Shown: positions 6,169 through 29,084, counted from the stretch's first letter. The stretch is DNA of 36,945 bases from an uncultured Nitratifractor sp. (GCA_947311565.1 CAMZLH010000054.1:1-36945); one strand, 5' to 3'. Notes: generated by a model from the letters alone, not told the origin. Translations and numbers: made by a program.

Positions 6169-6178
6169 ATGCATCCCC

Positions 6179-7862: not shown

Positions 7863-9020
7863 TTAAAATCTCATAGATAATGATATTGATCCTTTTGCAA
7901 ATGATGGACCTTTTTTCTTTCTCCAGAAAAATCTAGTTGGAGTATAGTAGTTGGAGTACATTATTGTTAATCTTCTTTTTTTACTATCTTTCCAGCCAAA
8001 TGAGAAAGCATAATCTGGCTCTTGAGATGTCTGCTTATTAAGCTTAGAGTATAGATATACAGAACCCGAGGCATAAAACTTTTTATATATAAACCCTTTT
8101 AGTGAAAGTGTTAATTGGTCTTGTGATGTATGCAGATACCTTTTATACTGTACAGAGCCTAATAGTTTATATATTTTTTTACTTGCAGATAGAGATAGAT
8201 AAGCTTTTTTAGACTTAGGAGTATACTTTAAAGATCCTCTTAAACTAACATCTTTTATCTTAGTTTTATAAGATAAGTCCCAAGTACCTGAACTAAAATT
8301 AAATCTATTATATCCACTATCTGGGCTAAATTTATTATCAGAGTAGTTTGAATAGACTAAACTCCAAGTATCTTGATGCCAATCAGAATAACCAAACGTA
8401 TAAGAGAAATCTGGCTCATAATATTTATTGTGCACACTATTTAATGTTTTTGCAAATGTTGCTCCAATAAAAAAATATTTTATAGGAGAGATATTAAGAG
8501 TTAGCTTTGCTTGCTCTCTACCACTATCTTCACCTATAATATTCTCTAAAGATGTAGAGTAACCTAAAGAGTAGCTAAACCACTTACTTAATGGCTTAAA
8601 AAATCTCTTTTTCATCTCTTTATCTTTAACTAATTTATTAGACTTTTGCTTAGATTTTTTACTATTAGTACTATTAAAATTGTTAGAGTTAAGAACTTTT
8701 CTTCTAGATTGTTTCTCCACACTCTCTTTACGGCTCTCCATCTCACTATCTATCTCATTTTGCATAAATAGTGATAGCTCATCACTCATCTCTTCTAACT
8801 CTTTAATATTCGCTATATCTACAACTATATCCTCTCTTTTTTGAGTCAAATTTTTATCTAAGAGAATAGTTTTACTATTACTACTATTTTTATCACTACT
8901 TACATTTGAATCTGCTCTACTGTTATTATCTATCTCTTTAAATATTGAGGCTATTGATTTATCTATAATCCACTGGCTATTTAGTGCTTTTTTTGCTAAT
9001 TCCCTGCTTCTTTTTTGCAC
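7863..9020 (-). CDS. Outer-membrane beta-barrel domain, probably expressed as a frameshift fusion
   Basis: 385 residues counted from the only start-like codon, GTG at 9020. The first ~140 residues are Lys/Glu/Ser-rich and helical. The rest is a run of amphipathic beta-strands with many Tyr/Trp/Ser (YSLGYSTSLEN, YTFGYSDWHQDTWSLVYSNY, GTWDLSYKTKI) and ends in SISLSMRF, a C-terminal Phe typical of BAM-inserted barrels. Size and pattern recall YaiO-like barrels, but I am not certain of the family. An outer-membrane protein needs a signal peptide and this frame has none; there is no ATG or good ribosome-binding site. The frame stays open upstream to 9149 and overlaps the end of the DUF3131 gene, so a -1 shift at the A10 run would fuse them into about 1414 residues. 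Likely role: the export pore or anchor for the polysaccharide. Confidence 0.7.
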   Translation of the reverse strand: MQKRSRELAKKALNSQWIIDKSIASIFKEIDNNSRADSNVSSDKNSSNSKTILLDKNLTQKREDIVVDIANIKELEEMSDELSLFMQNEIDSEMESRKESVEKQSRRKVLNSNNFNSTNSKKSKQKSNKLVKDKEMKKRFFKPLSKWFSYSLGYSTSLENIIGEDSGREQAKLTLNISPIKYFFIGATFAKTLNSVHNKYYEPDFSYTFGYSDWHQDTWSLVYSNYSDNKFSPDSGYNRFNFSSGTWDLSYKTKIKDVSLRGSLKYTPKSKKAYLSLSASKKIYKLLGSVQYKRYLHTSQDQLTLSLKGFIYKKFYASGSVYLYSKLNKQTSQEPDYAFSFGWKDSKKRRLTIMYSNYYTPTRFFWRKKKGPSFAKGSISLSMRF

Positions 9021-9097
9021 TAACTCTTTTGCTAACTTTAGTGCCTTTAATCTCTTTTGGGCTAGCTTTTTCTCTTCTATAATCTTTTGTAATAGGG

Positions 9098-12000
9098 CTA
9101 TTTTTTTTTTATTTTTTGAGCATTGACAACTTTTTTTAAACTTAAATAGTCACTATATGCTTTATTTACTACACTATCTATGCTATTTTTATATGGTATG
9201 TGATAATTATAGTTATAGTGACCACTAGAGTATACAAATTTAGTAGAGTCTATAGCGCCCTCTTTTATCTCGAAAAACTCTGGAAATGACTCCTCTTTAC
9301 TCTCTAGAAAAAATATTAAATCTTTTTTACTATTAAAGCTACCACCCCTTACTACAAACTCTTTACCTACTCTCTCTAATCTTTTATATGGTAAATCTTT
9401 AGGCAACTTTTGCATTAACATTTGCGCTTTATGTCTTAACTCTATAGGTGTACTCTCTAAATAGAAACTGCTATTGGTATCGATTACATCTAGATGGACA
9501 CTACTTAATAGTGAGCTATGTTTACTATAGTAATAGTTACCAAATCGTTTATAGAATATAGACTCTAATACTGCGCTATTTGTAGATATATTAAGAGATC
9601 TATTTACTCTGTTGTTATGAGAGTAAACACCGCCATACCAACCTTCTTTACTGCTACAATTAGAGTCTACAACTTCTAAGAGTTTAGCACTATAACTATC
9701 TGTATATCCATATAGAGCATCATATATAAATGCTGCTTTTGTACTAATTAACTTACTCTTAGATACAGACTTCTTCTCTCTATTTAAATCACTCCATTTT
9801 TTACCATTATTATAGATTGTATTCTCTATAAAGTATGGCTTTTTATCTAATGCTTCACTTGTTGATGTCGAGATTTTATGATTAATCGTATATTGCCCTT
9901 TTAGACTTAAATATATATTTGATGAGTAGTGCTTATACTTAATATAGTATGGATGCTCTAACATACTCCAGAGATAGCTTTCACCATTAGTTATCTGATA
10001 CTTATGCCCCATTGGTACCTCATAGTTATTAACAGCTTTATAATCTAAATTTCTCTCATCATAAAGATAGCTATAAGATTTTATATTAAATAGATTTAGT
10101 GCATTAAAAATATAGTACTCTTTTGCTGGATCTTTTATATCTGTAAAACCACCTTTACTCTTTCCATCAAAATATCTATTTTGCATACTTTTTTCTAAAA
10201 CTGCTCTCTTAAAATCCCATTTTGATATAATATCAAATACACTCTCTCTATATTGTGGATATGACTCTTCTAGATGATATAATGCAGTCATAAGTTTTGC
10301 TATAGAGTATAGCTCCCAACCATTACCTGTTGGGCTATCTTTACCTGCACTTGTAACCATTTTACCTGTTAGAGCATTATAATATAGGTTTGGCAACTCA
10401 TTATGGTAAAGTTTCATACTACTTAAAGAGCTCAAAACTTTAGAGATCTTACCGTTAAACTCCTCTTCATCAATTATCTCTAATTTAAAAGCAGATATTG
10501 TAGAGATAATAGCTTTTCCTATATGTGCTGGTTTTATAATTTTATACTTGTTTAGTCCATTAACATAACCTGTCTCTTGATGATAGTTATTTTCAAAATA
10601 TCTCCAAGCTACCTTTGCATTCTCTATATCTTTTGTACTATTAAGCTCTCTTGTCATTAGTGTATCGAATGGCTCTAAAATTGTCATTTGATTATCTGTT
10701 GGCAGACACCTAAAGTTATTTACATTATTTCTATAGTAATCATATGCTCCTCTATTTTCTATCTTATGCAGACTCTGTAAAGAGCCCATTTTAGAGGACA
10801 ACATTGCCTCTAGTATAATAGAGTTAGTATTGAGAGTCATAGCCTTGTTCTGTCCTGGTCTTTTCTCGTAAATACCTGCATAGTAGCCCTTTTTTGGATC
10901 ATAATTATTTTTAACATAATTAAATACTTTATTAGAGTATGGTGTATCAAATAGATATCTCATACCAATTGCAGCTTTAGTACTTACTGTTTTATAGTTA
11001 TCGTAATCTTCACCTTTTTGGTTAATTGTTTTCCAAGCTTCTCCACCTGTATATACAGTATTAAATAAGAAGTATGGTCGAGTATCTATATTATCTTCAG
11101 TAACAGCTGTAAGTTGTCCTGTACGCTCATATCTTCTCTTTTGCACCTCATACATATTTTTAATATATCTACCTGACTCATTATCATCTACTCCATACTC
11201 AAAACCAAGATACCAAAATGGCTCACTCTCGATAAAGTTAGAGAAGAAGGGTCTTGTATCTGTTGGTATCTTCACACCATAAACATCTACCTCTTTTACA
11301 AACTTATATGAGCGCGCCTCACTTGCATTATGGTGCCAAAGTTCATAACCTCTAGCAAGATACTCTTCGTATCCTGTAAGTGCTTCATGTCTAATATGAA
11401 GTTTTCCATTCTCCATTGAACCACCATAGAGATCACCCTCTACACTTAATGCTCTACAGTATCTATATCTAAGTAATAGTTTTTCAATTTGTGGCGCTAA
11501 GGTCTCTTCGCACTGCTCCACCATATTTAGTGACGACAATAACCTTGCTAAGTCTGCAGCTGACCAACCTGTACCATCTTTTTGTACTTTATTAACATAG
11601 TCGGTCATTTTAGCTGAGTTAGTATTATATGTTTTATTTGGTAGTTCGTTATTAAATATTTCCATTTTTTGCATAGTTTTTAAGAAAGTGTTCATCATTT
11701 TCTCATACTTTTCTTGCGTAATAATATTAAACTTTCTAGCTGCATATATTGCATATACTGCATTTGCCCAATCCCAGGTAGCAGCAGATGGATACTTATG
11801 TGCTGCGGCTGTTAAACCTGTTTTTTTATTAAAGTTATTCTCTATATATTTCCATGCAATACGAGCCATCTTTATCTCCTCTTTTGTAGGAGCACACTTT
11901 AACTGACAAGGAGAAGTTAATGGTGTAGGGTATATACACTCACCTGGTTTTATACCAATATCGTTATATAGATCTAAAGAGTCATTACTATCTGTAACAG

Positions 12001-12106
12001 CTATATCTACTCTATTTTTACTATTTAAAGTATATACAATATAGGAGTTAAATAGTAGTATCAATAGTAAAATTACTGCAATAATTAATTTTATATTTTT
12101 TCTCAT
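9098..12106 (-). CDS. Membrane-anchored protein with two DUF3131 domains
   Basis: 1002 residues: an N-terminal signal or anchor helix (about 7-26), a short Cys-containing linker (C57, C67, C71), DUF3131 domain 1 (about 75-445), DUF3131 domain 2 (about 490-880), and a ~120-residue tail ending in a Lys-rich helix. DUF3131 proteins are found beside cellulose-synthase-like glycosyltransferases and are predicted helical, (alpha/alpha)-barrel-like glycan enzymes; the activity is not established. Domain 1 keeps the residues shared with the one-domain paralogue in this operon (W111-D112, GWSAAD with D185, LTAVTED with E337/D338), whereas domain 2 has lost them. The start is firm: AAGGAG six bases before the ATG. 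Its TAG follows directly after ten A, the proposed slippage site into the barrel frame. Confidence 0.82.
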   Translation of the reverse strand: MRKNIKLIIAVILLLILLFNSYIVYTLNSKNRVDIAVTDSNDSLDLYNDIGIKPGECIYPTPLTSPCQLKCAPTKEEIKMARIAWKYIENNFNKKTGLTAAAHKYPSAATWDWANAVYAIYAARKFNIITQEKYEKMMNTFLKTMQKMEIFNNELPNKTYNTNSAKMTDYVNKVQKDGTGWSAADLARLLSSLNMVEQCEETLAPQIEKLLLRYRYCRALSVEGDLYGGSMENGKLHIRHEALTGYEEYLARGYELWHHNASEARSYKFVKEVDVYGVKIPTDTRPFFSNFIESEPFWYLGFEYGVDDNESGRYIKNMYEVQKRRYERTGQLTAVTEDNIDTRPYFLFNTVYTGGEAWKTINQKGEDYDNYKTVSTKAAIGMRYLFDTPYSNKVFNYVKNNYDPKKGYYAGIYEKRPGQNKAMTLNTNSIILEAMLSSKMGSLQSLHKIENRGAYDYYRNNVNNFRCLPTDNQMTILEPFDTLMTRELNSTKDIENAKVAWRYFENNYHQETGYVNGLNKYKIIKPAHIGKAIISTISAFKLEIIDEEEFNGKISKVLSSLSSMKLYHNELPNLYYNALTGKMVTSAGKDSPTGNGWELYSIAKLMTALYHLEESYPQYRESVFDIISKWDFKRAVLEKSMQNRYFDGKSKGGFTDIKDPAKEYYIFNALNLFNIKSYSYLYDERNLDYKAVNNYEVPMGHKYQITNGESYLWSMLEHPYYIKYKHYSSNIYLSLKGQYTINHKISTSTSEALDKKPYFIENTIYNNGKKWSDLNREKKSVSKSKLISTKAAFIYDALYGYTDSYSAKLLEVVDSNCSSKEGWYGGVYSHNNRVNRSLNISTNSAVLESIFYKRFGNYYYSKHSSLLSSVHLDVIDTNSSFYLESTPIELRHKAQMLMQKLPKDLPYKRLERVGKEFVVRGGSFNSKKDLIFFLESKEESFPEFFEIKEGAIDSTKFVYSSGHYNYNYHIPYKNSIDSVVNKAYSDYLSLKKVVNAQKIKKK
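9101..9110 (-). other. A10 homopolymer: proposed -1 slippage site
   Basis: On the coding strand the DUF3131 frame ends AAA-ATA-AAA-AAA-AAA-TAG, with ten consecutive A before TAG. Slipping back one base reads ATA-GCC and enters the barrel frame, which is open to 7863. The junction then reads as one Lys/Leu-rich helix. Real slippage, a strain mutation or a homopolymer sequencing error could each explain it. Confidence 0.55.
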
Positions 12107-12147
12107 ATTTAACTCCTTTCATTTTTATCACACATTATATCTTAATT

Positions 12148-13698
12148 TTACTTCGATTTATCGGTAAATAAACTAATATTAGACATAATTTTACTATTTA
12201 TTTTTTTATAACTTGGTATTAAGTTACAACTAGTAGCACTAATTGGGTGCGAAGCACCTTTTATAAATATAGTTGTGATCTTATTTTTACTTTTAACTGT
12301 TTCTAAATCTAACTTTTTTAAATTATCAAATGTTACTAAAGTATCATCTATACTATGAATCGCTAATATTGGTATGTTAAAATTATCTAAGTGATCTATT
12401 GGCGAGTATTTATGTAACCATTCTAATCTCTTTTTGTCATCATTAACTCCAGACAACTTTATCTGCTTATTTTCTGGGTATAGAGTTAAGTCACTACTCA
12501 TGCTATTTAAGAGAACCAATTTAATACCCTTAGATATACTTTTATCCATTTTAGATATAGCCATAAATAGTAACTGTGCTCCTGCAGAATCACCCATAAC
12601 AACAGTTTTTTGTGAGTTAGCTCTATACTTAGATGCATTATTAATTAAATATTCAATTACCCTCTTAACATCATCTATCTGTTTAGATATATGCATATCT
12701 TTTGAACCTAATAGTCTATAGTTAACTACTGCTGCACTAAAGCCAATATCTGCATAATATTTGGCATAGCCTCTAAATTGAGACTTATCTCCACCACTCC
12801 AGCCTCCTCCATGAACATATATAAAGAGACTATTGTTGTTAGACTCCTTTTTATAGTATATATCAAACTTTTGCAGTTCACCCTCTGCATATGGCTGATC
12901 AAGCTCTTTAGAGAGCTTATTTGTAGGTCGATATAGTATCTTACCAAGATGTAGACGAATTTGTGGATAGTAACTACCTAATGTAGATTTGACTACTCTT
13001 TTACTCTGAAGATTAGATATTACAGATTTTAAATATCGATTAATCTCCAGCTCTATCTTCTGTTTATCTATAGCAAAATAGTAGTTGTAATTAAGTGAAA
13101 GGGGTAGAGATATTTTATCTATATCATCTCTTCTATCTTTATTGGATTTGGTATCAATATATAGAGTATTAGGAAAGTACCAGTCTCTTTGAATAGCAGG
13201 ATCAAGTGCATTAGATATCTCATATAGTGAAGTATCTAATTTTAACTCTTTGTAGTAGCCATCTATCGCATTACAATACTCTAAAACTCTTCTTTCTTTT
13301 CGACTTTTACTAAAGCAATTTTTATATATATTTAGAGGAGTATTCTCTAATATAAATGCCTCTACACTCTTTTGATAATCTCTACTAAGATTATGATAAG
13401 CAACAGCAGCTAAAGCAGCATTAATCCCCTTTGCATATATAATTAAATTTGGATACTCTTTACCCTCATCATTAGTTATTTTTTTAATACTATCTTGTAT
13501 AGTAAAAACTCTCTCTTCTATTGTGATCTTACTATTAAATGTTACTGTTGTGATATCTATATTTTTATCTATATCTACACCATTACAACTATTAACCTTA
13601 TAGTACTCACTATCTTCTATGCATAGCATTTTAGTAGTTGCAGAAAACAGTAAAATAGATGTAGATATAGCTACAGATACAACTCTAAAAAGATTCAA
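12148..13698 (-). CDS. Secreted alpha/beta-hydrolase esterase (HSL/BD-FAE-like)
   Basis: 516 residues with a signal peptide (about 1-25). The C-terminal half is a complete esterase of the hormone-sensitive-lipase type: oxyanion motif HGGGWSGGDKSQ, nucleophile elbow GDSAGAQL, Asp in HSIDDTLVTF, His in GASHPIS. The N-terminal half (about 45-210) seems hydrolase-like but degenerate: LIIYAKGINAALAAVAYHN looks like an elbow with Asn in place of Ser. The gene sits between the OpgC-like acyltransferase (11-base gap) and the DUF3131 gene (41-base gap). I infer that it removes ester substituents from the operon's polysaccharide; a peptide or lipid ester substrate is possible. The family is confident, the substrate is not. 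Confidence 0.8.
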   Translation of the reverse strand: MNLFRVVSVAISTSILLFSATTKMLCIEDSEYYKVNSCNGVDIDKNIDITTVTFNSKITIEERVFTIQDSIKKITNDEGKEYPNLIIYAKGINAALAAVAYHNLSRDYQKSVEAFILENTPLNIYKNCFSKSRKERRVLEYCNAIDGYYKELKLDTSLYEISNALDPAIQRDWYFPNTLYIDTKSNKDRRDDIDKISLPLSLNYNYYFAIDKQKIELEINRYLKSVISNLQSKRVVKSTLGSYYPQIRLHLGKILYRPTNKLSKELDQPYAEGELQKFDIYYKKESNNNSLFIYVHGGGWSGGDKSQFRGYAKYYADIGFSAAVVNYRLLGSKDMHISKQIDDVKRVIEYLINNASKYRANSQKTVVMGDSAGAQLLFMAISKMDKSISKGIKLVLLNSMSSDLTLYPENKQIKLSGVNDDKKRLEWLHKYSPIDHLDNFNIPILAIHSIDDTLVTFDNLKKLDLETVKSKNKITTIFIKGASHPISATSCNLIPSYKKINSKIMSNISLFTDKSK

Positions 13699-13709
13699 AT
13701 AACGATCTC

Positions 13710-14924
13710 CTATCTAGGTATTACATTATATAGAACTTTATTCTTAACCATAATCCACATAAATGCAAATACTAATGTATGGCCTAAAGTATTAATCCAA
13801 AAATTATCTTGATGGAAAATAGCAATATTTGCAATAACTATACATGCATAGACATGCAAAATAAATACATATAAAGATGCCTGACCTATCGGAATAAAAA
13901 ACCATCCAAACAACTTATTAATAGGTTTCCATAAATATGAGAGCATTGCATAAGAGACAATAAGTACGACAAAATCATTTATGAGTCTACCTATACCTAA
14001 TGTATTCTTTGGAAAAAACATATGGTAGTAGTGCCTAAATGTCTCAGGTGATATATAGTGTAATTTCAAATAATCTGGTATATCTTTTAATGGATTATTA
14101 TAGGTAAAAAATAGAAATAGAAAAAATAGTAACAGAATAAATGAGAAGACTATTCCACCTAATTTAGTATGAAAAAAGTTCCAAATTTCGTCTCTATAGT
14201 AGCCTATACTTAAACCGTGTATAAATAGTATTTGCCAAGTTAAAAGTGGAAAAGCATATTCAAATTGTGCTCCAGTAGGTCGAACATGAAATCCATTATT
14301 TGCAAAATATATAATCCAACTGAGTGCAAGTACTACCTTCACTTTATCTTTGCTAAGTAACCACAAAACAAATGGAGACAACATAAGTAAAAAAACATAT
14401 AGTCCTAGTATCTGAAACTGATGTGGTCCATACTGTAACATAAGATATTTAGCTATAATCTTATTGTAGTGTGTTGCAAATTGCTCCATATTTGGATATA
14501 AATTATAAACTTTACCACTATATGTAGTAAATGTCATAGCAGCATGTGCATCTATGTATGGTATTAAATCTATTAATAATACAGATAAAATAACAAATAA
14601 AGATGTGCGATATAGTAAGAAAGAGCGATTATACTGCTTATTAATTGTAGATGCCAAACCATCATGCGCCATGCGCATTCTAGATAACATTCCAAGTATT
14701 AATCCAGATAATAAAACAAAACCTTCTGCACCAGTTACAACACCAAATCTCTCCCAAGCTATATAGTCATATGCAGATATTATATCAATATGTACAGCTA
14801 TGAGTATTAGCATTACCATACCACGAATAAAATCTACTCTTAAATCTCTCTTTCCACCACCTTCTTGATAGTGCCACTGATTCATAAAATTTAACATTAT
14901 TGCAGCTTTAGGCTCTTTTTCCAT
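13710..14924 (-). CDS. OpgC-like membrane acyltransferase
   Basis: 404 residues, polytopic (about ten membrane helices), matching the OpgC family that transfers succinyl groups to periplasmic glucans in proteobacteria. Typical features are the N-terminal RDLRVDFIRG before TM1, the His in IAVHIDII, then AEGFVLLSGLILG and a run of hydrophobic helices to the C terminus. The acyl donor and acceptor are inferred from the family: an O-linked acyl group, probably succinyl, on the glycan made by the neighbouring synthase. It lies 14 bases after the one-domain DUF3131 gene and 11 bases before the esterase, so it is an operon member. Length is normal. Confidence 0.83.
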   Translation of the reverse strand: MEKEPKAAIMLNFMNQWHYQEGGGKRDLRVDFIRGMVMLILIAVHIDIISAYDYIAWERFGVVTGAEGFVLLSGLILGMLSRMRMAHDGLASTINKQYNRSFLLYRTSLFVILSVLLIDLIPYIDAHAAMTFTTYSGKVYNLYPNMEQFATHYNKIIAKYLMLQYGPHQFQILGLYVFLLMLSPFVLWLLSKDKVKVVLALSWIIYFANNGFHVRPTGAQFEYAFPLLTWQILFIHGLSIGYYRDEIWNFFHTKLGGIVFSFILLLFFLFLFFTYNNPLKDIPDYLKLHYISPETFRHYYHMFFPKNTLGIGRLINDFVVLIVSYAMLSYLWKPINKLFGWFFIPIGQASLYVFILHVYACIVIANIAIFHQDNFWINTLGHTLVFAFMWIMVKNKVLYNVIPR

Positions 14925-14938
14925 ACTTATATCCCCCT

Positions 14939-16252
14939 CTACTTACTAGGTATCATTTTAACTAATGGACCATGCTCTTTATACATAAGAGACTCTAATA
15001 TAATGGCATTTGTATTACAAGTTAAAGATTTATTAAGCTTTTCATCCTTTTCATATATACCTGTGTACCAACCTCTAGGACTCTTTAAGCTATTAACTTT
15101 TTTAATCAATTTCTTTGTGTACTCTGTATGATATAAAGCATCCATAGCAAATGAAGCTTTTGTACTTAGCTGCTTCATATCATTATGTACTTTACCATTA
15201 TCATCAATCGCTACCCACTCTTTTCTATTAACATATATACAGTTATAGATAAAGTATGGTGCTTTATCTAAGTGGTCTTCTGTTACTGCTGTAAGAGTGC
15301 CTGTCTCTTTATATCTTGCCTCTTGTGCCGCATATAGTCTATATGAGAACTCTTTAGAAAAGTAATCCCAACCAAACTCTAAACCATCTAACATATATGG
15401 TTCCATAAGAACATAGTTATTCGCAGTAGAGTGTTTTTTATCTCTTCTATCGTAAGGTATAGAGTAACCCTCTATATCTGTAAACTCTAAAAATTTATCA
15501 TATCTTAGAGCATTAGTAATATCAACCCCAAAACTAGCAAACATTTTAGAGGTGTACTGCTCGTAACCTAAACGACCCTCTTGTAGCAAAGACTCTTTAC
15601 CATTTTTAACTATAGCACCAAATAGAGCACCCTCTTTAGTCATATCTTTTATACTCCATCTTCTAAGAATAGAGTCTATTTTATTACTAAATTTAGGTTC
15701 ATTGTATTGTAAATAAGCTAAAGGAATTAACAATCTACCAATATCTATTGCCGACCAGCCGATACCTTTTTTTGTTGCTTTATTTTCGTAGTTGCTCATC
15801 TCTAATGTCTGAGTATTATATACCTTATTTGGAAGAGCACCTCTATATAATTTAATTTTAGAAAATGTATCTAAAATTTTGTTCATTCTATCTTCATAGA
15901 CATTTTCTTCTATAATATGAAGATTTTTTGCAGAAATTAGTGCCATCATATAGTTTCCACTATCCCAAAGTGTTGTAGATGGAAAGTTATCAACAGAGTT
16001 AACTAATCCAGTACTTTCTTGGTAGTTATTTTCAAAATAGCTCCATGCAACTTTAGCAGCATCGAGTTCTTCTTTATTAAGTTTTCTTACTGTTATATTT
16101 AGTTCTGGTGCTACTTTATCTTTAATTACAACCACTCCTAATCCTTGTCTTTTCATATCTATTCCATTTAAAAAATATATCACAACCGAACCAAAAATAA
16201 GTGCTAATAAAAAGACAATATGGTGTCTTGCTCTTTGTAAACTTTTATTCAT
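14939..16252 (-). CDS. Membrane-anchored one-domain DUF3131 protein
   Basis: 437 residues: one N-terminal anchor helix (about 11-29), a linker, then one DUF3131 domain (about 60-432). It aligns well with domain 1 of the larger paralogue: LWDSGN (D97), ALPNKVYNTQTLEMSNY, GWSAIDIGRLL (D170), GYEQY, LTAVTEDHLDKAPYF (E325, D326), STKASFAMDALY, GWYTGIYEK and CNTNAIILESLM. The repeated Asp/Glu residues and aromatic positions suggest a glycan-binding or glycan-cleaving periplasmic enzyme, but no activity is established for the family as far as I know. It starts 3 bases after the glycosyltransferase stop, which suggests that it works with the synthase. Confidence 0.83.
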   Translation of the reverse strand: MNKSLQRARHHIVFLLALIFGSVVIYFLNGIDMKRQGLGVVVIKDKVAPELNITVRKLNKEELDAAKVAWSYFENNYQESTGLVNSVDNFPSTTLWDSGNYMMALISAKNLHIIEENVYEDRMNKILDTFSKIKLYRGALPNKVYNTQTLEMSNYENKATKKGIGWSAIDIGRLLIPLAYLQYNEPKFSNKIDSILRRWSIKDMTKEGALFGAIVKNGKESLLQEGRLGYEQYTSKMFASFGVDITNALRYDKFLEFTDIEGYSIPYDRRDKKHSTANNYVLMEPYMLDGLEFGWDYFSKEFSYRLYAAQEARYKETGTLTAVTEDHLDKAPYFIYNCIYVNRKEWVAIDDNGKVHNDMKQLSTKASFAMDALYHTEYTKKLIKKVNSLKSPRGWYTGIYEKDEKLNKSLTCNTNAIILESLMYKEHGPLVKMIPSK

Positions 16253-16255
16253 CTA

Positions 16256-18010
16256 TTATCCTTCAAATTTATATAGGGCTGCTTGTACAATAGCCCAAAG
16301 TGATGTAATGTTAAAAAATGACCACATTAAATTAACTACATATCCTGCTAAATATACTCTATCGCCTATAATATATAGAGTTGCCGAGTATACTATTGCA
16401 ACTAAATAGAGTGCTATAATTGCCAACTGTATGCGAACTAATGGTAAAAAATTACCAGATTTAGCAGTTTTAGCAGTAACTACAAACCGTATAGGTTTGC
16501 GTCTTGCAACATCCCAAAAAGCTCTTAATACTATAGGAAATATTGCAATAAAAAATTGACCACCTCTGTTGGAGTTAATACCCCATGTTGCTATCATTAA
16601 AGCTAGTTGATTAAAAAATAAAAATGGTATTAAGTGTATAAAAAAATCCATTGAATAGCTTTGCACTGGTGCAATATTTGTAAACATATAGATAATTGGA
16701 GATGCTAAAAGAATCATAAGCCAAATTGCACCTGTATATGACCAAAATGTACTAAAATACATCAATTTTTGCCCAAGAGAGAGTCCAGATTTAAAGAACT
16801 GACCAAACTCTTTTGTAACTAAATCTATAGTACCGCCCGCATATCTAAACCTCTGTGCACTCCAAGTAATTAGATCTAAAGGAGATAACATTTTAGACTC
16901 AACATCTGGGTGTAGTACAGATTTATACTTCTTTTGCTTATGTGCATGTACAAGCAAAGATGTATAGATATCTTCAGAGGTATGGTAAGAGATATACTCT
17001 ACATCTATCTTCTCAATAGCACTCTTTTTATCTTTTGCTTCGATAACCCTATTTGCCCATCTAGTTATAGCAACACGACGCAGTGCGCTTGCTCTATGAA
17101 TAGATGTAGCACCACAACAAAAAGATGCATTGTAGTTATTTCTTCTTCTTTGTATTACATCAAAAAAAACGGCAGGGTCATTTGCAAATACATCTTCACC
17201 TACTTTTATTTTTCCCATTACCTTTTGTGTTGCTCTAGCTATATATTTACCAACAACTCCATATCTACGACTCCAATGATTATCTAAGCTCTCACCGGTA
17301 GTCAAGTCACAAAACCACTGAGGTGTTTGTACCCAAGCAACAGCATCATCTTTAAAGTAGCCTAGTGTATTTAGCAATATATTAGGGAATAGTCTAGTAT
17401 CAGAGTCTATTATAACAATAAAATCACCTAGTGTTTGATCCATGGCATATGTAATTGCACCAGCTTTTCTACCTTTGGTACTATCTCTTAAAATTTGAGG
17501 TACTCCCTCCTCTTGTGCCATTTTTGTCATATCATCACTATTACTATCATCAAGTAGATATAAGTTTACACTCCAAGTGGGTAACTTTTTAACTGATTTT
17601 GCCGCCTTTATTGTCTCTCTTACTAAAGATGGATCTTCATTAAATACAGGTATATAGATATCTATCTTAAGAGGATTATCTTTATACTCTGATTTTAGAC
17701 TCTTCTCTACAATTTCATCTTTTGTTGTAGGTGGAGTCTTCTTAGGTGTATCGTTAGTTTTCCAAAAATTGATAACTACTAAGATAGTACCTATAAACAT
17801 CATACTTTCAGCAAATGCTAGTGGTATTGCAAACCACAAGGCATCTGTATTTAAGGACTCTGTCCATCTATATTTTAGATACCAAATACCTAGCATCAAA
17901 GCAATAACTGCAAAAAACTGAAATAGCAGTTGCATCACTATTGATTGCTTCTGTGGTGGCTCTGGTACTCTCTTATCAAACCTATCTTCTAAAAAATAGA
18001 GTTCATCCAT
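16256..18010 (-). CDS. Processive family 2 glycosyltransferase (BcsA/MdoH-like)
   Basis: 584 residues with two N-terminal membrane helices (about 25-47 and 59-82), a cytoplasmic GT-A domain and several C-terminal membrane helices (about 415-445, 455-478, 485-500, 525-580). Catalytic motifs are present: DD (154-155), DSD (202-204, metal binding), QTPQWF, TSED (344-347, general base) and QRFRY (386-390, where most synthases have QxxRW). FVVTAK at 509-514 matches the BcsA gating-loop pattern FxVTxK. The protein ends at the last membrane helix, so there is no PilZ domain and no direct c-di-GMP switch. It should polymerise a nucleotide-activated hexose and push the chain across the inner membrane. 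The product is probably a beta-glucan, given MdoH/OpgC likeness, but linkage is unknown. Confidence 0.86.
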   Translation of the reverse strand: MDELYFLEDRFDKRVPEPPQKQSIVMQLLFQFFAVIALMLGIWYLKYRWTESLNTDALWFAIPLAFAESMMFIGTILVVINFWKTNDTPKKTPPTTKDEIVEKSLKSEYKDNPLKIDIYIPVFNEDPSLVRETIKAAKSVKKLPTWSVNLYLLDDSNSDDMTKMAQEEGVPQILRDSTKGRKAGAITYAMDQTLGDFIVIIDSDTRLFPNILLNTLGYFKDDAVAWVQTPQWFCDLTTGESLDNHWSRRYGVVGKYIARATQKVMGKIKVGEDVFANDPAVFFDVIQRRRNNYNASFCCGATSIHRASALRRVAITRWANRVIEAKDKKSAIEKIDVEYISYHTSEDIYTSLLVHAHKQKKYKSVLHPDVESKMLSPLDLITWSAQRFRYAGGTIDLVTKEFGQFFKSGLSLGQKLMYFSTFWSYTGAIWLMILLASPIIYMFTNIAPVQSYSMDFFIHLIPFLFFNQLALMIATWGINSNRGGQFFIAIFPIVLRAFWDVARRKPIRFVVTAKTAKSGNFLPLVRIQLAIIALYLVAIVYSATLYIIGDRVYLAGYVVNLMWSFFNITSLWAIVQAALYKFEG

Positions 18011-20157
18011 TATCTCTCCTTTTCAAACTTATAACTATTATTAGCAATATCTACACTCTTTTTTTTCAAATATAGATCTAGACTCTCTATACTATTTTGA
18101 TTAAGTGTAGCTACTTTAACTACACTATCGGCTGGTATCGAAATATCAAACTCCTCTTTAAATGTATGCTCTCCACTCTTATATCTAGCAACTACTTTCG
18201 CACCATTAAGTGCTTGAAGCTTATCATTAACTACATATATCTCTACCTCTCCACCCTCTATTTGCTTAGCAACTACTATAACTGGTGCATAGCTACTCTT
18301 TAGTGCGTTATATCCAGCTTTAGGTACTCTATAGTAATCTACAATACCCCAATTCATAGATGGCCAACCTTCGTTAAACATAAATTGGAAAATTCCCGTT
18401 GTATGGCTATATTTTTGCACTCTTAGCATCTCTACTGTAAACTTAATTAAAGAGGCTTGATACTCTTGAGACTCTTTTATAAACTCTTTTATATCACCTC
18501 TGTATTCGATTCCATTTTTACTATTCCAATTGAACTGAAAGTTATGATACTCCCACTCTTTTTTAGCCTTTTTACCTTTTGGTTTTAGATATTTTTTAGG
18601 TAGTATTCTCTTTAGGCTATCATAGTCTGGCAAAGCTTGCGCACCATATTCGCTAACAACTGCTACTTTAGAGTCTTTAGCAAAATCATGATAATCTCCA
18701 CTATACCACCCAAACCATGGATGTTCAAGCGAAGATGATATCTTCTTAATCATATGATAACTATCATAATTAGATATAGTTGTATAGAGCTTATCATCTA
18801 ACTCTACATTCTCTTTACCACTATAATCTCTATATTTCCACTTCATCCACTCAGAGTTCCAAGGTGGCTCATTATGCATAGACCATATAAATATTGAAGC
18901 ATGGTTATATAGTTTATCTACCATATCTTTGGCCTCTTTAATAGCTAAACTATGCATCTCTTTATTATCTATATATCCCCATTGTAAATTATAATCTTGC
19001 CAAACTAAAAAGCCCATCTCATCACATAACTCATAAAATCTCTTAGGCTCAATATGCGCATGTACTCTAATAGTATTTATATGCGCATCTCGCATAAGCT
19101 CTAAATCTTTTCTTAGCTTAGCAATACTCATCTCACTCATATATTGACTAGAGATATAGTTAGTACCCTTTATATATAGAGATTTCCCATTTAAAATAAA
19201 TCTTTTATTACTATCTTGAACCATAGATTTAAGTCCAATATTTTGACTATATATAGTATTATCAATTTTTATCTTAAGTGTATATAAATTAGCATCTCCT
19301 CTATCATGTGTACTCCATAGCTTTGAATTAGGTAAATTTATCTCTAAATGATGCACTCCAAAGGCGTTAAAATTAAACTTTTTAGAGTAAGAGTCTCCTT
19401 TAAAATTATATGGAACAACTTCTATCTCTATATTTTTAGGAACACTACTCATGGCATCACTATAGATAAACGATTTTTTACTACTGCTATATAGTTTTGT
19501 AATATTAAAATCTATCGATAGAGAGACATTACTATTATCTAAAATTTTTGGTGTAATTTTAAGATTATCTAGCTTTATACTATTAAGACTCTCTATAGAG
19601 ATATGGTTCCATATTCCACCAGAGTTTCTATCTTGACCCTTAGCAGACCATGCTCCACCAGCTCTTGTATCGTGGTGAGAAAATATGCCACGAAGTAGAG
19701 TCTTGTGTAGACTATAGTGCTCTGGATAGTTCTCTAATGGTGAGTTTACTCTAACTTCTATTTTGTTTATTCCTTTAACAAGATATGGTGTGATATCAAA
19801 TTTAAACTCTTGAAAATAACCACTATGAGAACCAACATAGTTACTATTTACCCATATATCACACTGGTAATCTACGCCTTCAAAATTAATAAAATGGTGC
19901 TTAGCTCTAGGTAGAAGCTTACTATTAAAACTCTTCTCAAACCAGACAATACCTGCATGGTTTAGACCCTCTTTATACCAGTTGTTTGGTAGCTGCATGC
20001 TGCTCTCTTTGCCGCTAAATATATATCTATAATCTAGTGTATGAGGCAAGTGCTCAACATGGTAGAGCCATTTGCCATCTAAAGATACTTTTTTAGGGAA
20101 AGTATCTGAAAATAGTATGCTATATAGGGCAAAGAATAGTACTAAAAACTTTTTCAT
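18010..20157 (-). CDS. Secreted glycoside hydrolase family 2
   Basis: 715 residues with a signal peptide (KKFLVLFFALYSILFSDT). The GH2 layout is complete: an N-terminal jelly-roll sugar-binding domain (about 25-195; GIVWFEKSF, CDIWVNSNYVGSHSGYF), an Ig-like domain (about 196-315), and a TIM barrel (about 318-600) with acid/base Glu430 in SMHNEPPW and nucleophile Glu503 in VVSEYGAQ. A further C-terminal domain follows. Known GH2 activities include beta-galactosidase, beta-glucuronidase and beta-mannosidase; I cannot choose among them. In this operon it probably trims or edits the exported polymer in the periplasm. Its ATG overlaps the preceding stop (TAATG) by one base, and its own stop overlaps the glycosyltransferase start. 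Confidence 0.87.
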   Translation of the reverse strand: MKKFLVLFFALYSILFSDTFPKKVSLDGKWLYHVEHLPHTLDYRYIFSGKESSMQLPNNWYKEGLNHAGIVWFEKSFNSKLLPRAKHHFINFEGVDYQCDIWVNSNYVGSHSGYFQEFKFDITPYLVKGINKIEVRVNSPLENYPEHYSLHKTLLRGIFSHHDTRAGGAWSAKGQDRNSGGIWNHISIESLNSIKLDNLKITPKILDNSNVSLSIDFNITKLYSSSKKSFIYSDAMSSVPKNIEIEVVPYNFKGDSYSKKFNFNAFGVHHLEINLPNSKLWSTHDRGDANLYTLKIKIDNTIYSQNIGLKSMVQDSNKRFILNGKSLYIKGTNYISSQYMSEMSIAKLRKDLELMRDAHINTIRVHAHIEPKRFYELCDEMGFLVWQDYNLQWGYIDNKEMHSLAIKEAKDMVDKLYNHASIFIWSMHNEPPWNSEWMKWKYRDYSGKENVELDDKLYTTISNYDSYHMIKKISSSLEHPWFGWYSGDYHDFAKDSKVAVVSEYGAQALPDYDSLKRILPKKYLKPKGKKAKKEWEYHNFQFNWNSKNGIEYRGDIKEFIKESQEYQASLIKFTVEMLRVQKYSHTTGIFQFMFNEGWPSMNWGIVDYYRVPKAGYNALKSSYAPVIVVAKQIEGGEVEIYVVNDKLQALNGAKVVARYKSGEHTFKEEFDISIPADSVVKVATLNQNSIESLDLYLKKKSVDIANNSYKFEKER

Positions 20158-21335
20158 TATCTATTTATGGTCATCTCGCCAATATTTTTAATCATCTCCA
20201 TAATATCTTTTTGCTCTTGGCTCATTACTGTTTCATCTTTTCTAGCATCATCAACTAAGAAGTTCATATCTGACTCCTCAATATCTATTGAGCTTCCAAA
20301 TGGATTAATAATATATTTTCCTGCAATAATCTTCTCTTTAATCTTTGCATGTGCAGTTACTTTTGTGTATCCTAATATGACACTTTTATCAATTGTAACA
20401 CCCTCTTTTATAACAGATCCAGAACCAATCATTGTAGGACCAATAATTTTCGCACCCTTCTCTATGCGAACACTACTTCCAATATATACAGGACCCTCAA
20501 ATGTTACTTCATCTAAATCTATATCACAGTTAATTCCCATCCATAAATCTTTTTTAACCTCTTTTCCATAAGGCACTAAATCATTCACCTCTTTATTTAC
20601 CAGCATTGTATTAGCTACATAGAAATCTTTAGTAGATCCTACATCTACCCATTGAAATTTTGGTGCTGTTGCAAAAAATGGTAAACCCTTCTCTACTAAA
20701 AGTGGTAGTAATTCTCCACCAATATCAAATTCACCCTCATTTGGAATATAGTCAAAGACTTCTGGATTAAAGATATAGATACCTGTATTAATTATATTAC
20801 TCTTAGCCTCTTCTACTTTTGGTTTCTCTTGAAACGATAATACTCTCTTATCATCATCTGTAACAACAACTCCATATTTATATACTTCATCTTTTGGTAC
20901 CTCTTTACAAATAACTGTAGCGACTGCACCCTTTTCTTTATGATAATTCATAGCTTCAGTTAAATCTATATCTATTAATGCATCACCACAAATAACTAAA
21001 AATGGTTCATCAAAAAAGTTTGAATAATCTTGCACTTTCTTTAAACCTCCAGCAGAGCCTAATCCAACTGGTACGATCTCTCCCTCTTCTAGTTTTCCCT
21101 CTAAAGAGTAAGCAATTTGCATACCATAATCTGCACCATTTTTATAGTGATCTTCTATTGTATTTGCCATATACCCTACTGTAACAATTACTTCATTAAA
21201 ATCATGTTTTTTTAGTAGATCTAAGAGATAGCTCATTATTGGTCTCTCTGCAATTGGTACCATTGGCTTTGGTAGCATATAAGTTAGTGGTCTAACTCTT
21301 GTTCCTTTTCCTCCAGCTAAAATAACTGCTTTCAT
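20157..21335 (-). CDS. Sugar-1-phosphate nucleotidyltransferase with hexapeptide repeats
   Basis: 392 residues. The N-terminal nucleotidyltransferase domain (1-235) has the signature AGGKGTRVRPLTYMLPKPM, VICGDALIDID (metal-binding Asp), EKPKVEE, NTGIYIF and WVDVGSTKDF. The C-terminal part (about 250-350) is a left-handed beta-helix of hexapeptide repeats (VYIGSSVRIEKGAKIIGP, MIGSGSVIKEGVTI). It converts a hexose 1-phosphate and an NTP into an NDP-sugar. The layout fits mannose-1-phosphate guanylyltransferase or glucose-1-phosphate nucleotidyltransferase families; the base and sugar cannot be fixed from motifs. It starts inside the end of the kinase gene (4-bp overlap), and supplies the donor for the synthase two genes downstream. 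Confidence 0.87.
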   Translation of the reverse strand: MKAVILAGGKGTRVRPLTYMLPKPMVPIAERPIMSYLLDLLKKHDFNEVIVTVGYMANTIEDHYKNGADYGMQIAYSLEGKLEEGEIVPVGLGSAGGLKKVQDYSNFFDEPFLVICGDALIDIDLTEAMNYHKEKGAVATVICKEVPKDEVYKYGVVVTDDDKRVLSFQEKPKVEEAKSNIINTGIYIFNPEVFDYIPNEGEFDIGGELLPLLVEKGLPFFATAPKFQWVDVGSTKDFYVANTMLVNKEVNDLVPYGKEVKKDLWMGINCDIDLDEVTFEGPVYIGSSVRIEKGAKIIGPTMIGSGSVIKEGVTIDKSVILGYTKVTAHAKIKEKIIAGKYIINPFGSSIDIEESDMNFLVDDARKDETVMSQEQKDIMEMIKNIGEMTINR

Positions 21336-21727
21336 TCTTTATCCTTTTTAAATATAAATACTATTTTACTTTTTTCAGTATATATCGTATCACTTAATAA
21401 TACTGCAAGCTTTAAACCACGACCATTTTCTGCTAGATAATCCATATTTTTTGCCTCATCTTTTGTAGGTAAAACAATTTCAACACTACCCTCGTCAACA
21501 ATTGTAAACTCTATTAAATCAGCACTCTCTTTGAGTGTTACATATACTTGCTTACTCTTATCAAGAGAGTTAGCATGAACAATAGAGTTAGTAACTAACT
21601 CTTGATTTATTAGTAGTATATTATTGTGTAATTTAAGACTAATATCTTTTGGTAAATTACGTTTTAGCCACTCTTGTAAATTTACCAACTCACTTAATTG
21701 GCTATCTAGCTGTATAGATTGCAACAT
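21332..21727 (-). CDS. RsbW-like anti-sigma-type serine kinase (HATPase)
   Basis: 131 residues forming a single GHKL ATPase domain of the RsbW/SpoIIAB type: N box INQELVTNSIVHAN (about 45-58), VDEGSVEI, and glycine box NGRGLKLAVLLSD. It has no histidine-kinase phosphoacceptor domain. In known partner switches such a kinase phosphorylates a STAS antagonist on Ser and binds an alternative target when the antagonist is phosphorylated. The partner STAS gene is immediately upstream (12-base gap) and the PP2C phosphatase gene is divergent. No sigma factor gene is nearby, so its output is unknown; it may act on the polysaccharide enzymes rather than on transcription. The 4-bp overlap with the nucleotidyltransferase ties it to that operon. 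Confidence 0.82.
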   Translation of the reverse strand: MLQSIQLDSQLSELVNLQEWLKRNLPKDISLKLHNNILLINQELVTNSIVHANSLDKSKQVYVTLKESADLIEFTIVDEGSVEIVLPTKDEAKNMDYLAENGRGLKLAVLLSDTIYTEKSKIVFIFKKDKE

Positions 21728-21739
21728 ATTAAAGCTATT

Positions 21740-22060
21740 TTAGTTATCGCAATTATCTACTATTGTAAATACATTATTTAGCTGTGTTATCTGCATCAAC
21801 TCTGTTGGTTGTTCATTTAAACCACACAATTTCAAATCTGAGTTTTCAACATTATTTAAATGTTTCAAGATTGTAATCAATACACTTAAACCAGAACTAT
21901 CTAAAAAATTAATATTAGATAGATCTAAAATAATCTTATCCTTACCCTCTATCAGTTTCATCACTTTATCTTTCGTCTCTTGCATTACAGATACATCTAA
22001 TCTCTCATACCATATTTTAATAACTAAATACTCACCACTATCATTTACATCAATTTGCAT
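21740..22060 (-). CDS. STAS-domain anti-anti-sigma-type protein (RsbV/SpoIIAA-like)
   Basis: 106 residues, one STAS domain. LDLSNINFLDSSGLSVLI (about 45-62) holds the conserved DSSG; Ser56 matches the serine phosphorylated by SpoIIAB/RsbW-type kinases. As first gene of the operon it would report the phosphorylation state set by the kinase downstream and the PP2C phosphatase encoded divergently. The frame extends upstream to 22132, but I chose the ATG at 22060 because AAGGAG lies six bases before it and the STAS fold begins at once (MQIDVNDSGEYLVIKI). An AT-rich -10-like sequence overlaps the longer version. Confidence 0.86.
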   Translation of the reverse strand: MQIDVNDSGEYLVIKIWYERLDVSVMQETKDKVMKLIEGKDKIILDLSNINFLDSSGLSVLITILKHLNNVENSDLKLCGLNEQPTELMQITQLNNVFTIVDNCDN

Positions 22061-22306: not shown

Positions 22307-23464
22307 ATGAAAAATAAAATACTAATTGTAGATGACGAGATATTTAATATAGAGTTACTAAAGTTCTCTTTAAATGAACTAGATGAACTAGAGATACTAC
22401 AAAGTTCTAGTGCACAAGGTGCATTAGATATTGTCTCTAAAACTGAAATTGATTTAATTATACTAGATATATCTATGCCTGGAATGAGTGGGCTAGAGGC
22501 ACTAAAAATTTTAAAAGATGATGATAGATATAAGTATATTCCTGTAATTATGGTAACAGCTAAAAATGAAGATCGCCATATAGCACTAGAGTATGGATCT
22601 GAAGATTTTTTAGCAAAGCCTATAGATACAGTTGAGCTACGCTTTAAAGTTAATAATCTTCTAAAACTAAAAAAGTTTAACGATCTACAGAAACACTTTA
22701 ATCAAAGATTAGAAGAGGAGATAGCAAAGAAAGAGGAGCAGCTAAAGAAGTTTGCACATATAGAGCAAGAGCTTAAGATGGCTAAAGAGATACAGGAGAG
22801 TATTTTACCAAAGAAGTATCCAACCTCATCTGGTTTAGATATATATGGATCATGCAATCAAGCGAGTGATGTTGGTGGTGACTATTTTGATATATTCGAA
22901 ACTGATTGTGGTAACTATACATACTTTATTATGGCTGATGTATCTGGTCATGGATTTGCATCATCTCTTTTAGCTATGCAGTTTAGAACAATTGTACATG
23001 CCGAATTAAATGCTTATAGTAGTGATTTCTCTAAAGTTATAGAAAAAATAAACTATATTTTTACTAAAAATAATAGTGACTCCTCAATGTTTATTACTGC
23101 ACTTATGTTAAGGTATTCACATAAAGACTCTACTATAGAGTCTATAAATGCTGGTCACTTTAATCCTTTAGGTAATATAGAGATGAAACACGAAAGTGGA
23201 ATACCATTTGGAATTTTAGATAATGCTTTATACCCAACACTTACAACAGTAATAAACAAAGGAGATAAAATACTACTCTTTACTGATGGTATTATTGAAG
23301 GCGAATCTACTACTGGTGAGATGTATGAAGAGAGTCTATACAGACTCCATAAAACTATTTATGATAAATCTAGCCAAGAGCAAGTAGAGATTATACTAAA
23401 TGAGTATCATAAATTTATCGATAAACAGATTGATGATGTAACTATTATGGCTATAGGTAAGTAG
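22307..23464 (+). CDS. Response regulator with PP2C (SpoIIE/RsbU-like) phosphatase output
   Basis: 385 residues. The N-terminal receiver domain (about 1-120) has VDDE, the phosphoacceptor Asp54 in LIILDISMPG, VTAKNED and LAKPID. A coiled-coil linker (about 122-165) contains AKEIQESILP, typical of RsbU-like proteins. The C-terminal PP2C/SpoIIE domain (about 175-385) keeps the metal-binding motifs GGDYFDIF, MADVSGHG, FTDGIIEG and DDVTIMAIG. It should dephosphorylate the STAS protein encoded divergently when its receiver is phosphorylated, releasing or capturing the RsbW-like kinase. A likely phosphodonor is the hybrid kinase encoded next door, whose Hpt domain could pass phosphate on. AAGAGGT precedes the ATG. 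Confidence 0.88.
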   Translation: MKNKILIVDDEIFNIELLKFSLNELDELEILQSSSAQGALDIVSKTEIDLIILDISMPGMSGLEALKILKDDDRYKYIPVIMVTAKNEDRHIALEYGSEDFLAKPIDTVELRFKVNNLLKLKKFNDLQKHFNQRLEEEIAKKEEQLKKFAHIEQELKMAKEIQESILPKKYPTSSGLDIYGSCNQASDVGGDYFDIFETDCGNYTYFIMADVSGHGFASSLLAMQFRTIVHAELNAYSSDFSKVIEKINYIFTKNNSDSSMFITALMLRYSHKDSTIESINAGHFNPLGNIEMKHESGIPFGILDNALYPTLTTVINKGDKILLFTDGIIEGESTTGEMYEESLYRLHKTIYDKSSQEQVEIILNEYHKFIDKQIDDVTIMAIGK

Positions 23465-26480: not shown

Positions 26481-27594
26481 ATATTGCTGTAAGTGTCATA
26501 GTTTGATTATGCAACTGACAATTTAATATCTCATTAGAGTGTGGCGCTAACTCTCCGTATGAGTAGAACCCTGTTAACTCAACATTATCACCTAATATCA
26601 TAGATATTGACTCTAACTCCTCATCACTAAGTTGATTTAGTACTGCTCTTCTACCAACACAACTAACAACTAAGCATAGTGCACTTTTACTATTTTCTTG
26701 ACTAATATCTTTTGCTGCTATTTCTGATGCATCTATAAGACTATCTATATCAGACTTCATAAGTCTTGCAAGTGAACCCTCTTTTACATCTCCTGCAAAT
26801 ATTAAAGAGTTTTTATCTTCATCTACTGCTAGTACACTTCTAATAACAGGTGTAGACTCTTTACTATCTTTTACATTAAAAGGAAATAGTAGACCAGAGT
26901 TTGGCAAGTCTTTAGCATACTCACCTAGATACTTTTTATATAACCCTAGTGCCGGTTGATTATCTATTTCGTAAACTATATTAGTTGTAGATTTTGTAAT
27001 TGTTCTAAAAATACCAAACTCTTCCCAGCCTGAATAACAGCCACTACTGACATGCAAAGATTTGCCATAAAATCCAATAGCTACAACAATATTGTTTCTA
27101 GCAGGTGCATTTGCTACAATATATGTCTCTTCAAACTCTAGACCATCTCCTGCTAATCCACCAGTAATTGAGATACTATTTTTATATGCACTATTTACAC
27201 CTTCTGCTAATAAAGAGCCATTCATATTTAGTCCATCTGATAATACAAAGATATGTTTTAAATCATCACTCTCTAACTCTTTTACCAATTTAGCACTATC
27301 TCTAACTTGATCTTCATTGCTATCTATTTGCATAGTACTTATTTTGACATATCCACTACTAAAAGTAACTGCTGAAGCAACTATAGAAGCACTACTTAAT
27401 CTATCTCCTTGGATATTACCACTAGAGCTACAACCAACTATATCTGCATTTGGATATAGTTTTTTTAACTCTATATAGCTACTCTCTTCTTTTATCGCCT
27501 CTCTATCACCAAAAACAAATACAATATTTACATCTGTATTAACACTCTCTATACTCCATTTACTATCACTATATATTAAGTTCTCTATCTTCAT
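26470..27594 (-). CDS. FIST N/C-domain sensory protein
   Basis: 374 residues covering FIST_N (about 25-205; [34 protein letters not shown]) and FIST_C (about 215-355; [52 protein letters not shown]). FIST proteins are thought to bind small ligands, possibly amino-acid-like, and often occur with two-component or methyl-accepting proteins. It has no signal peptide or membrane helix. It lies 1 base after pgi and overlaps the hybrid kinase start, so pgi, FIST and kinase form an operon. I infer that it passes a metabolic cue to the kinase; the ligand is unknown. Confidence 0.88.
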
Positions 27595-29060: not shown

Positions 29061-29084
29061 ATAATATATAAAAAGGTGAAGATT

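Follow-up and report, generated by a model that had tools for sequence, protein, structure and literature searches.

The operon and its genes

The window analysed here was the whole of a 36,945-base stretch, one complete contig, from a 1.69-Mb genome of an uncultured Nitratifractor sp. (Campylobacterota). It carries a polysaccharide operon whose closest relatives, judged by the GT2 and DUF3131 proteins, were found in Sulfurovum-type metagenome-assembled genomes (MAGs). The operon is real and recurs in several bacterial groups, and its last two "genes", a double-DUF3131 protein and a beta-barrel, are probably one protein joined by slippage on a run of ten A's. Ten open reading frames (ORFs) lie on the minus strand from 22,132 to 7,863. 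All ten agreed with the gene list of the initial annotation, which had described a ten-gene operon with genes overlapping or at most about 41 bases apart. That spacing was found among the first nine genes, whose junctions ranged from a 4-nucleotide (nt) overlap to a 41-nt gap, and for these Pfam also agreed with each domain call, from STAS through HATPase_c_2, NTP_transferase, GH2, GT2, DUF3131, OpgC_C and BD-FAE/Abhydrolase_3 to the two DUF3131 domains of the ninth. The barrel ORF, as it had been called (GTG at 9020), lay 77 nt past the preceding stop and did not appear to be an independent gene. For the STAS gene, position 22060, which is M25 in the longest ORF, was preferred as the start over 22132, as it better matched the lengths in relatives. 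The genome's three DUF3131 domains were all inside the window. Scans of the window for promoters and terminators gave no clear excess over shuffled sequence. The features of the operon, all on the minus strand, were as follows.

21740..22060, minus: STAS-domain protein of the anti-sigma-factor-antagonist type, first gene (Pfam PF01740, 6e-14; TIGR00377, 7e-17, above cut-off)
21332..21727, minus: RsbW/SpoIIAB-like HATPase serine kinase (Pfam PF13581, 9.5e-10; N-box and GRGLKL intact)
20157..21335, minus: nucleotidyltransferase, most likely a UTP-glucose-1-phosphate uridylyltransferase for UDP-glucose supply (nearest solved structure 8x7s)
18010..20157, minus: GH2 glycosidase, predicted periplasmic (Pfam GH2 N, C and central domains)
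16256..18010, minus: GT2 polymerase, predicted inner-membrane, with QRFRY and no PilZ (Pfam GT2; alignment and tree)
14939..16252, minus: single-DUF3131 protein, membrane-anchored (PF11329, 3e-138; AlphaFold2 model)
13710..14924, minus: OpgC-type membrane acyltransferase (PF10129, 2e-49, 168.7 bits)
12148..13698, minus: alpha/beta-hydrolase esterase (BD-FAE, 5e-27; Abhydrolase_3, 4e-13)
9098..12106, minus: double-DUF3131 protein, 0-frame product of 1002 amino acids (aa), membrane-anchored, with a Lys-rich tail (PF11329, two domains)
9101..9110, minus: A10 slippery run directly ahead of the 0-frame TAG, with in-phase A AAA AAA heptamers; proposed -1 site
7863..9149, minus: -1-frame extension that runs on for about 411 aa after the 0-frame stop, with a Lys-rich linker and, at the C-terminus, a predicted outer-membrane beta-barrel (open frame)

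The junction between the double-DUF3131 and barrel frames

The barrel frame was open upstream to about 9149. It is the -1 frame of the double-DUF3131 gene and shares 52 nt with it, across the A10 run at 9101-9110; the barrel gene of the initial annotation was the 7863-9020 part of this extension. The same junction was compared among relatives (loci and genomes are given by our L and G handles) in a sample of 11 evaluable split loci and two fused ones, which did not include copies truncated at a contig end or G133, a heavily broken draft that looks error-ridden. The -1 frame continued for 297-462 aa past the 0-frame stop in all 11 split loci, while the +1 frame continued for 2-40 aa. The overlap measured 13-109 nt in the split loci, and each one contained an in-phase heptamer, either A AAA AAA or A AAA AAG. 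A run of A9–A11 was found in 10 of the 11, and the eleventh (L049) had A AAA AAG followed by a strong hairpin (z = -4.7). The 0-frame stop lay at most one codon from the run in seven of the 11. Over all 13 loci, the frame of the barrel was -1 in 11, 0 in two and +1 in none, though the lengths vary.

The run was also rare. It was the sole A/T homopolymer of at least nine in the window and in L040, L044, L046, L047, L050 and L045. The genome held four A10 runs: the junction, dnaX, and two outside any open frame of at least 70 codons. No A10 other than the junction run occurred in the genome of G121, whose locus has 48% GC, and the junction run was one of two in each of G052 and G014. The pattern in L049 is that expected of ribosomal slippage, and moderate hairpins were also found downstream in L047 and L050; transcriptional slippage does not need a stimulatory hairpin.

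The dnaX gene of this genome (L075, G000:C26; A10 at locus position 1501) carried its A10 in phase, with early stops in both shifted frames, like dnaX genes of the slippage type. The dnaX run also occurred in G092 (A10) and G074 (A9), and most other relatives were without it. Because of this lack of conservation, dnaX was taken as suggestive and as a weak control.

The barrel and the probable fused product

Nearly all double-DUF3131 ORFs carried an N-terminal hydrophobic anchor. The split barrels had no hydrophobic N-terminus, while the free-standing barrels of Vibrio and Enterobacterales have one. Among relatives, the barrel extension was 50-59% identical, and its AlphaFold2 model had 14 strands with a predicted local distance difference test (pLDDT) score of 81. 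A search of PDB sequences with the barrel profile returned nothing. A SPOR domain preceded the linker, at the equivalent C-terminal place, in L042 (4e-7) and L045 (1e-4), and none was detected in the window copy. If its anchor is uncleaved, the fused form would span from the inner to the outer membrane.

The enzymes and the polymer

The nucleotidyltransferase matched 8x7s, a UTP–glucose-1-phosphate uridylyltransferase, over residues 1-378 (E 5.7e-126), and was much nearer to it than to mannose or other enzymes. This match supported a supply of UDP-glucose, and hence a glucan as the polymer. The GT2 synthase belonged to a branch of 23 rows separate from BcsA and OpgH (support 98/98, with long outgroup branches) that also included Gamma- and Alphaproteobacterial members. 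It was 18% identical to E. coli OpgH and 24% identical to BcsA, and the NCBIfam CelA model gave it 128 bits against a cut-off of 699. Across the branch, the QxxRW motif was replaced by QRF[RK]Y or QRYKY. This loss is of note because the Trp of QxxRW in cellulose synthase stacks on the acceptor glucose (PMC6821405). The nearest solved chains to the GH2 protein were beta-mannosidases and other GH2 enzymes, and a PDB sequence search with OpgC found nothing. Among the operon genes there were no Pfam matches to PilZ, BcsB, BcsC or OpgG-type proteins, as had been claimed initially for BcsB/C and OpgG.

The DUF3131 proteins scored 461 and 633 bits with PF11329, against a gathering score of 20.3. The single-DUF3131 AlphaFold2 model (pLDDT 86, predicted template-modelling score 0.86) was used in a fold search, in which the top 19 PDB matches were SGL-clan proteins or uncharacterised "putative glucoamylase" relatives. 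The best of these were 4qt9, 8xuj, 5gzh, 4gl3 and 8wy1, with template-modelling (TM) scores of 0.56-0.65. The DUF3131 profile also matched 8wy1, the cyclization domain of cyclic beta-1,2-glucan synthase (CGS), by sequence (4e-7), and the family has several invariant acids. The fold placed DUF3131 in the beta-1,2-glucanase clan, from which an activity on glucan chains may be predicted.

The regulatory switch and neighbouring genes

The initial annotation had placed a partner-switch pair at the head of the operon and ended before the further genes listed here.

22307..23464, plus: response regulator-SpoIIE (RR-SpoIIE; PP2C) phosphatase, divergent from the operon, likely the STAS phosphatase (PF00072, 9e-24; PF07228, 7e-32)
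23601..26480, minus: PAS hybrid histidine kinase with REC and Hpt domains (HEIRTP H-box, residue 357)
26470..27594, minus: FIST N/C protein, NosP-type candidate haem sensor (PF08495, 2e-41; PF10442, 1e-33)
27596..28819, minus: phosphoglucose isomerase (PGI), 1 nt upstream of the FIST gene (PF00342, 1e-32)
29076..30470, plus: phosphoglucomutase/phosphomannomutase (PGM; profile match and synteny)

The STAS and kinase genes were indeed present, and the module was larger than the pair. With the phosphatase beside the operon and the motifs of all three proteins intact, the genes at its head include every component of a phosphatase–kinase switch of the RsbU/V/W type, namely a STAS protein, a HATPase kinase and a PP2C phosphatase. 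The STAS phosphoacceptor-type motif DSSG was intact in the window and conserved in relatives, and the RR-SpoIIE protein retained its phosphoacceptor Asp and metal motifs. Beyond the RR-SpoIIE gene, PGI, FIST and hybrid kinase genes formed a string with a 1-nt gap and then an 11-nt overlap, and PGM lay farther on. A gene for FIST N and C domains that adjoins, and overlaps, a hybrid kinase gene matches a NosP-type arrangement.

The sensor types varied among loci. FIST was found in the window and H-NOX in Pseudooceanicola (Pfam 6e-35), and a globin was annotated in Pantoea stewartii, Salmonella and Chimaeribacter, the Pantoea one without a Pfam match. Candidate haem sensors beside the hybrid kinase were L059:6091-6633, L053:20066-20500, L060:20060-20494, L072:18134-18583 and 26470-27594 of the window. 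Together, the loci with H-NOX, annotated globin or FIST suggested gas sensing as a common input, which we treat as a lead.

Elsewhere in the window, an AcrB-type resistance-nodulation-division permease on the minus strand (2030-5371) was split into two adjacent ORFs, an N half (3764-5371) and a C half (2030-3763), and adjoined membrane fusion protein and outer-membrane efflux protein genes (5368-7594). An AAA_15/AAA_21 (OLD/AbiEii-like) ATPase gene at 35356-36516 (plus) directly followed an ATP-grasp gene (34180-35346).

Occurrence across bacteria

Genes for GT2, DUF3131, OpgC, GH2, esterase and STAS/kinase were found together in Campylobacterota, Enterobacterales, Vibrio and Rhodobacterales. 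A search for such co-occurrence had been proposed initially as a check on the operon; it was seen across phyla, and homologues scattered through relatives, which had been named as a refuting observation, were not. The locus is sporadic, as DUF3131 was carried by 14 of 175 genomes of the family and by seven of 397 genomes drawn evenly from the phylum (largely the same genomes). Fuller loci held STAS, ATPase, nucleotidyltransferase, GH2, GT2, DUF3131, OpgC, esterase, double DUF3131 and barrel. Minimal loci held STAS, nucleotidyltransferase, GT2, DUF3131 and double DUF3131 with barrel, and did without OpgC, esterase and GH2; no kinase or phosphatase was detected in them, and the STAS phospho-site showed no clean split between full and minimal loci. 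In minimal loci, the position of GH2 was taken by a conserved gene ahead of STAS, whose product is lipoprotein-like and about 460 aa long (L042:14150-15517 and L045:4519-5913, the latter without a Pfam match). PGM and PGI adjoined the barrel end in L049, as did, in L047, an ORF that matched PGM and was truncated where the contig stops.

Plasmids of Pantoea, Salmonella, Chimaeribacter, Paracoccus, Pseudooceanicola and another Rhodobacteraceae carried similar functions along with RR-SpoIIE, STAS and ATP-binding genes, and an unannotated locus on a Vibrio plasmid was matched by ORF search. The Salmonella GT2-DUF3131 DNA had no match in 5,426 E. coli genomes.

Proposed mechanism and alternative explanations

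These findings were brought together in a model in which an acyl-modified, beta-linked glucan is made, edited and exported under the control of the switch, with the barrel supplied by slippage. We give this full account a probability of roughly 0.6. By homology, the nucleotidyltransferase would supply UDP-glucose, with PGI and PGM nearby, and the GT2 synthase would polymerise it across the inner membrane. Acyl groups may be added and removed by OpgC and the esterase, and the periplasmic chain would be trimmed or transglycosylated by the GH2 and, going by their fold, the DUF3131 enzymes. The terminal protein would be a single polypeptide of membrane anchor, two DUF3131 domains, linker and outer-membrane barrel. 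Its 0-frame product would end at the A10 run, and a -1 shift would add the barrel, either through RNA-polymerase slippage on A9-A11 or through ribosomal slippage on A AAA AAR. Most likely, each cell would then make two forms, one without the barrel and one that is inserted in the outer membrane and may bridge the envelope. The hybrid kinase, which may receive input from the FIST/NosP-type haem protein, would phosphorylate the RR-SpoIIE phosphatase, which would oppose the RsbW-like kinase on the STAS protein; the STAS protein would in turn set synthase activity or transcription. The fusion is better supported than this regulatory chain. The earlier proposal of a distinct acylated-glucan pathway was partly upheld, as the set is coherent and synthase-dependent with a UDP-glucose enzyme by homology, and was amended in its last gene, which had been misread, and in its regulation, which was incomplete.

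A bolder version of the model is more doubtful than probable and is offered tentatively. It holds that one slippage event sets the place of a glucan enzyme, either at the inner membrane and periplasm or in a single-chain export conduit from inner to outer membrane, in a partner-switched and possibly gas-sensing system spread over several phyla.

Several results weigh against the model. A shuffle of synonymous codons often yielded an equally long A run (P 0.08-0.93), as expected of a Lys-rich tail with AAA-biased codons. Run length alone is therefore not evidence of selection, and the case rests on position, constant frame and genome-wide rarity. A downstream hairpin was not found in most loci, including most of those with A9–A11. 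All Campylobacterota copies came from draft assemblies, mostly or entirely MAGs. The barrel matched porin-like folds only moderately (TM about 0.5). Among Campylobacterota loci, FIST was matched in the window only, and a general link to haem gas sensors is kept as a lead for that reason. GH16 neighbours in Vibrio, Paracoccus and Sphingobium pointed to beta-1,3/1,4 links, at odds with the beta-1,2 hint from DUF3131, and no linkage was assigned because of this disagreement.

The main alternative for the polymer is that it is not exported: the DUF3131/OpgC/GH set would make a periplasmic glucan of the osmoregulated periplasmic glucan (OPG) type or a cyclised beta-glucan, with the barrel serving only as an enzyme anchor. 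The DUF3131 genes of Shewanella piezotolerans, which form a salt-shock co-expression module (PMC8371737), are consistent with such a role. However, the distance of the GT2 from both OpgH (18%) and BcsA (24%), the lack of OpgG, and the fact that some relatives have GH16 and not beta-1,2 enzymes argue otherwise, and we regard a non-exported polymer as somewhat unlikely.

At the junction, the main competitor of slippage is phase variation, by which slipped-strand mispairing would change the length of the poly-A run and turn the barrel fusion on or off between cells. Phase variation at homopolymers is classic in Campylobacterota. Both fused loci, G052 and G012, have a single ORF, and G012 has A11 where its near-identical sisters G013 and G014 have A10 and are split. 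Another gene of the same genus (g3; L085, L081 and L090, in G013, G014 and G012) has a coding A run of length A10 in two of these genomes but A20 in the other, and is possibly phase-variable itself. Random changes in length would, however, leave about one third of loci in the +1 state, which was seen in 0 of 13; (2/3)^13 is about 0.005, for loci that are not fully independent. Two further points against it are that L049 has a hairpin and no long run, and that in seven of 11 loci no more than one codon separates the run from the 0-frame stop. Phase variation was judged improbable.

Assembly or sequencing indels would imply that the true genomes have a single fused ORF, from which short-read assemblies lost a base in the run. 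Homopolymers are error-prone, every locus came from a draft genome, and a fused ORF does exist in two relatives. Yet all 11 split loci differ in the same direction, and they represent several families' worth of unrelated sequencing projects; at its junction L049 has no more than A6G, and apart from the split, L050 (48% GC) and other loci show no damage, which makes such errors a very improbable cause. A separate barrel gene, as first annotated, expressed by reinitiation or translational coupling and exported by an unusual route, would suit the short distance past the stop and the GTG/TTG codons downstream, but it was rejected as the least credible reading because no split barrel has a signal peptide or other hydrophobic export signal, the candidate starts lie at non-homologous places, and the frame is open upstream through the overlap, across A10 in the window, in every split locus.

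Significance and comparison with known systems

The polysaccharide system described here is widespread yet unstudied, being carried on Pantoea, Salmonella and Paracoccus plasmids and reported in Klebsiella, and the DUF3131 family is without an assigned activity. Its place in the beta-1,2-glucanase fold clan, together with a nucleotidyltransferase grouped among UDP-glucose makers, opens the way to direct enzyme tests. If slippage is correct, recoding would here decide in which compartment of the cell an enzyme resides, an unusual case, and annotation pipelines could in this way miss or misread outer-membrane domains. If the single-chain conduit also proved correct, it would be an envelope exporter controlled by recoding.

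The regulatory genes resembled those of syp in Vibrio fischeri, where a STAS protein, a response regulator with PP2C and a hybrid kinase accompany polysaccharide genes. In the present locus, however, kinase and phosphatase are separate proteins, and the polymer-making genes are of another kind. To our knowledge, no described recoding event adds an outer-membrane barrel to a periplasmic enzyme.

Literature searches found no publication joining these parts, no functional study and just three papers that name DUF3131, in line with the earlier statement that no known locus has this set. That statement needs qualifying, since block 3b of K. pneumoniae, reported in 2026 with no function given (PMC12974863), is similar. 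By its published description, it shares a cellulose-synthase-like protein, three DUF3131, OpgC, a hybrid kinase, an anti-sigma factor and its antagonist. The DUF3131 loci on plasmids of Pantoea, Salmonella and Chimaeribacter, also with no function given, have in addition RR-SpoIIE, GH2 and a barrel-like "hypothetical" protein. They differ in that a gene of its own encodes the barrel, whose N-terminus resembles a signal peptide, the DUF3131 domains are in three separate genes, and a globin gene usually takes the place of the window's FIST.

Like Bcs, the system has a GT2 with DxD, ED and FxVTxK-type motifs, a periplasmic (alpha/alpha)6 enzyme and an outer-membrane barrel tied to a periplasmic part, as in BcsC. 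Unlike Bcs, it has QRF[RK]Y in place of QxxRW, lacks PilZ, BcsB and a TPR-barrel BcsC, and uses a partner switch in place of a cyclic di-GMP domain. With the Opg/Mdo and cyclic beta-1,2-glucan systems it shares an OpgC-type acyltransferase and, in DUF3131, a fold common to beta-1,2-glucanases and the CGS cyclisation domain, whereas its GT2 is not OpgH-like, OpgG is lacking, and GH2, esterase and barrel are extra. The junction itself is most like recoding of the dnaX and mxiE type, in which A9-A10 or A AAA AAG sites give two products; dnaX orthologues use either transcriptional or ribosomal slippage (PMC1088944). In contrast to dnaX and mxiE, the shift in this operon would equip an enzyme of the periplasm with a barrel for the outer membrane.

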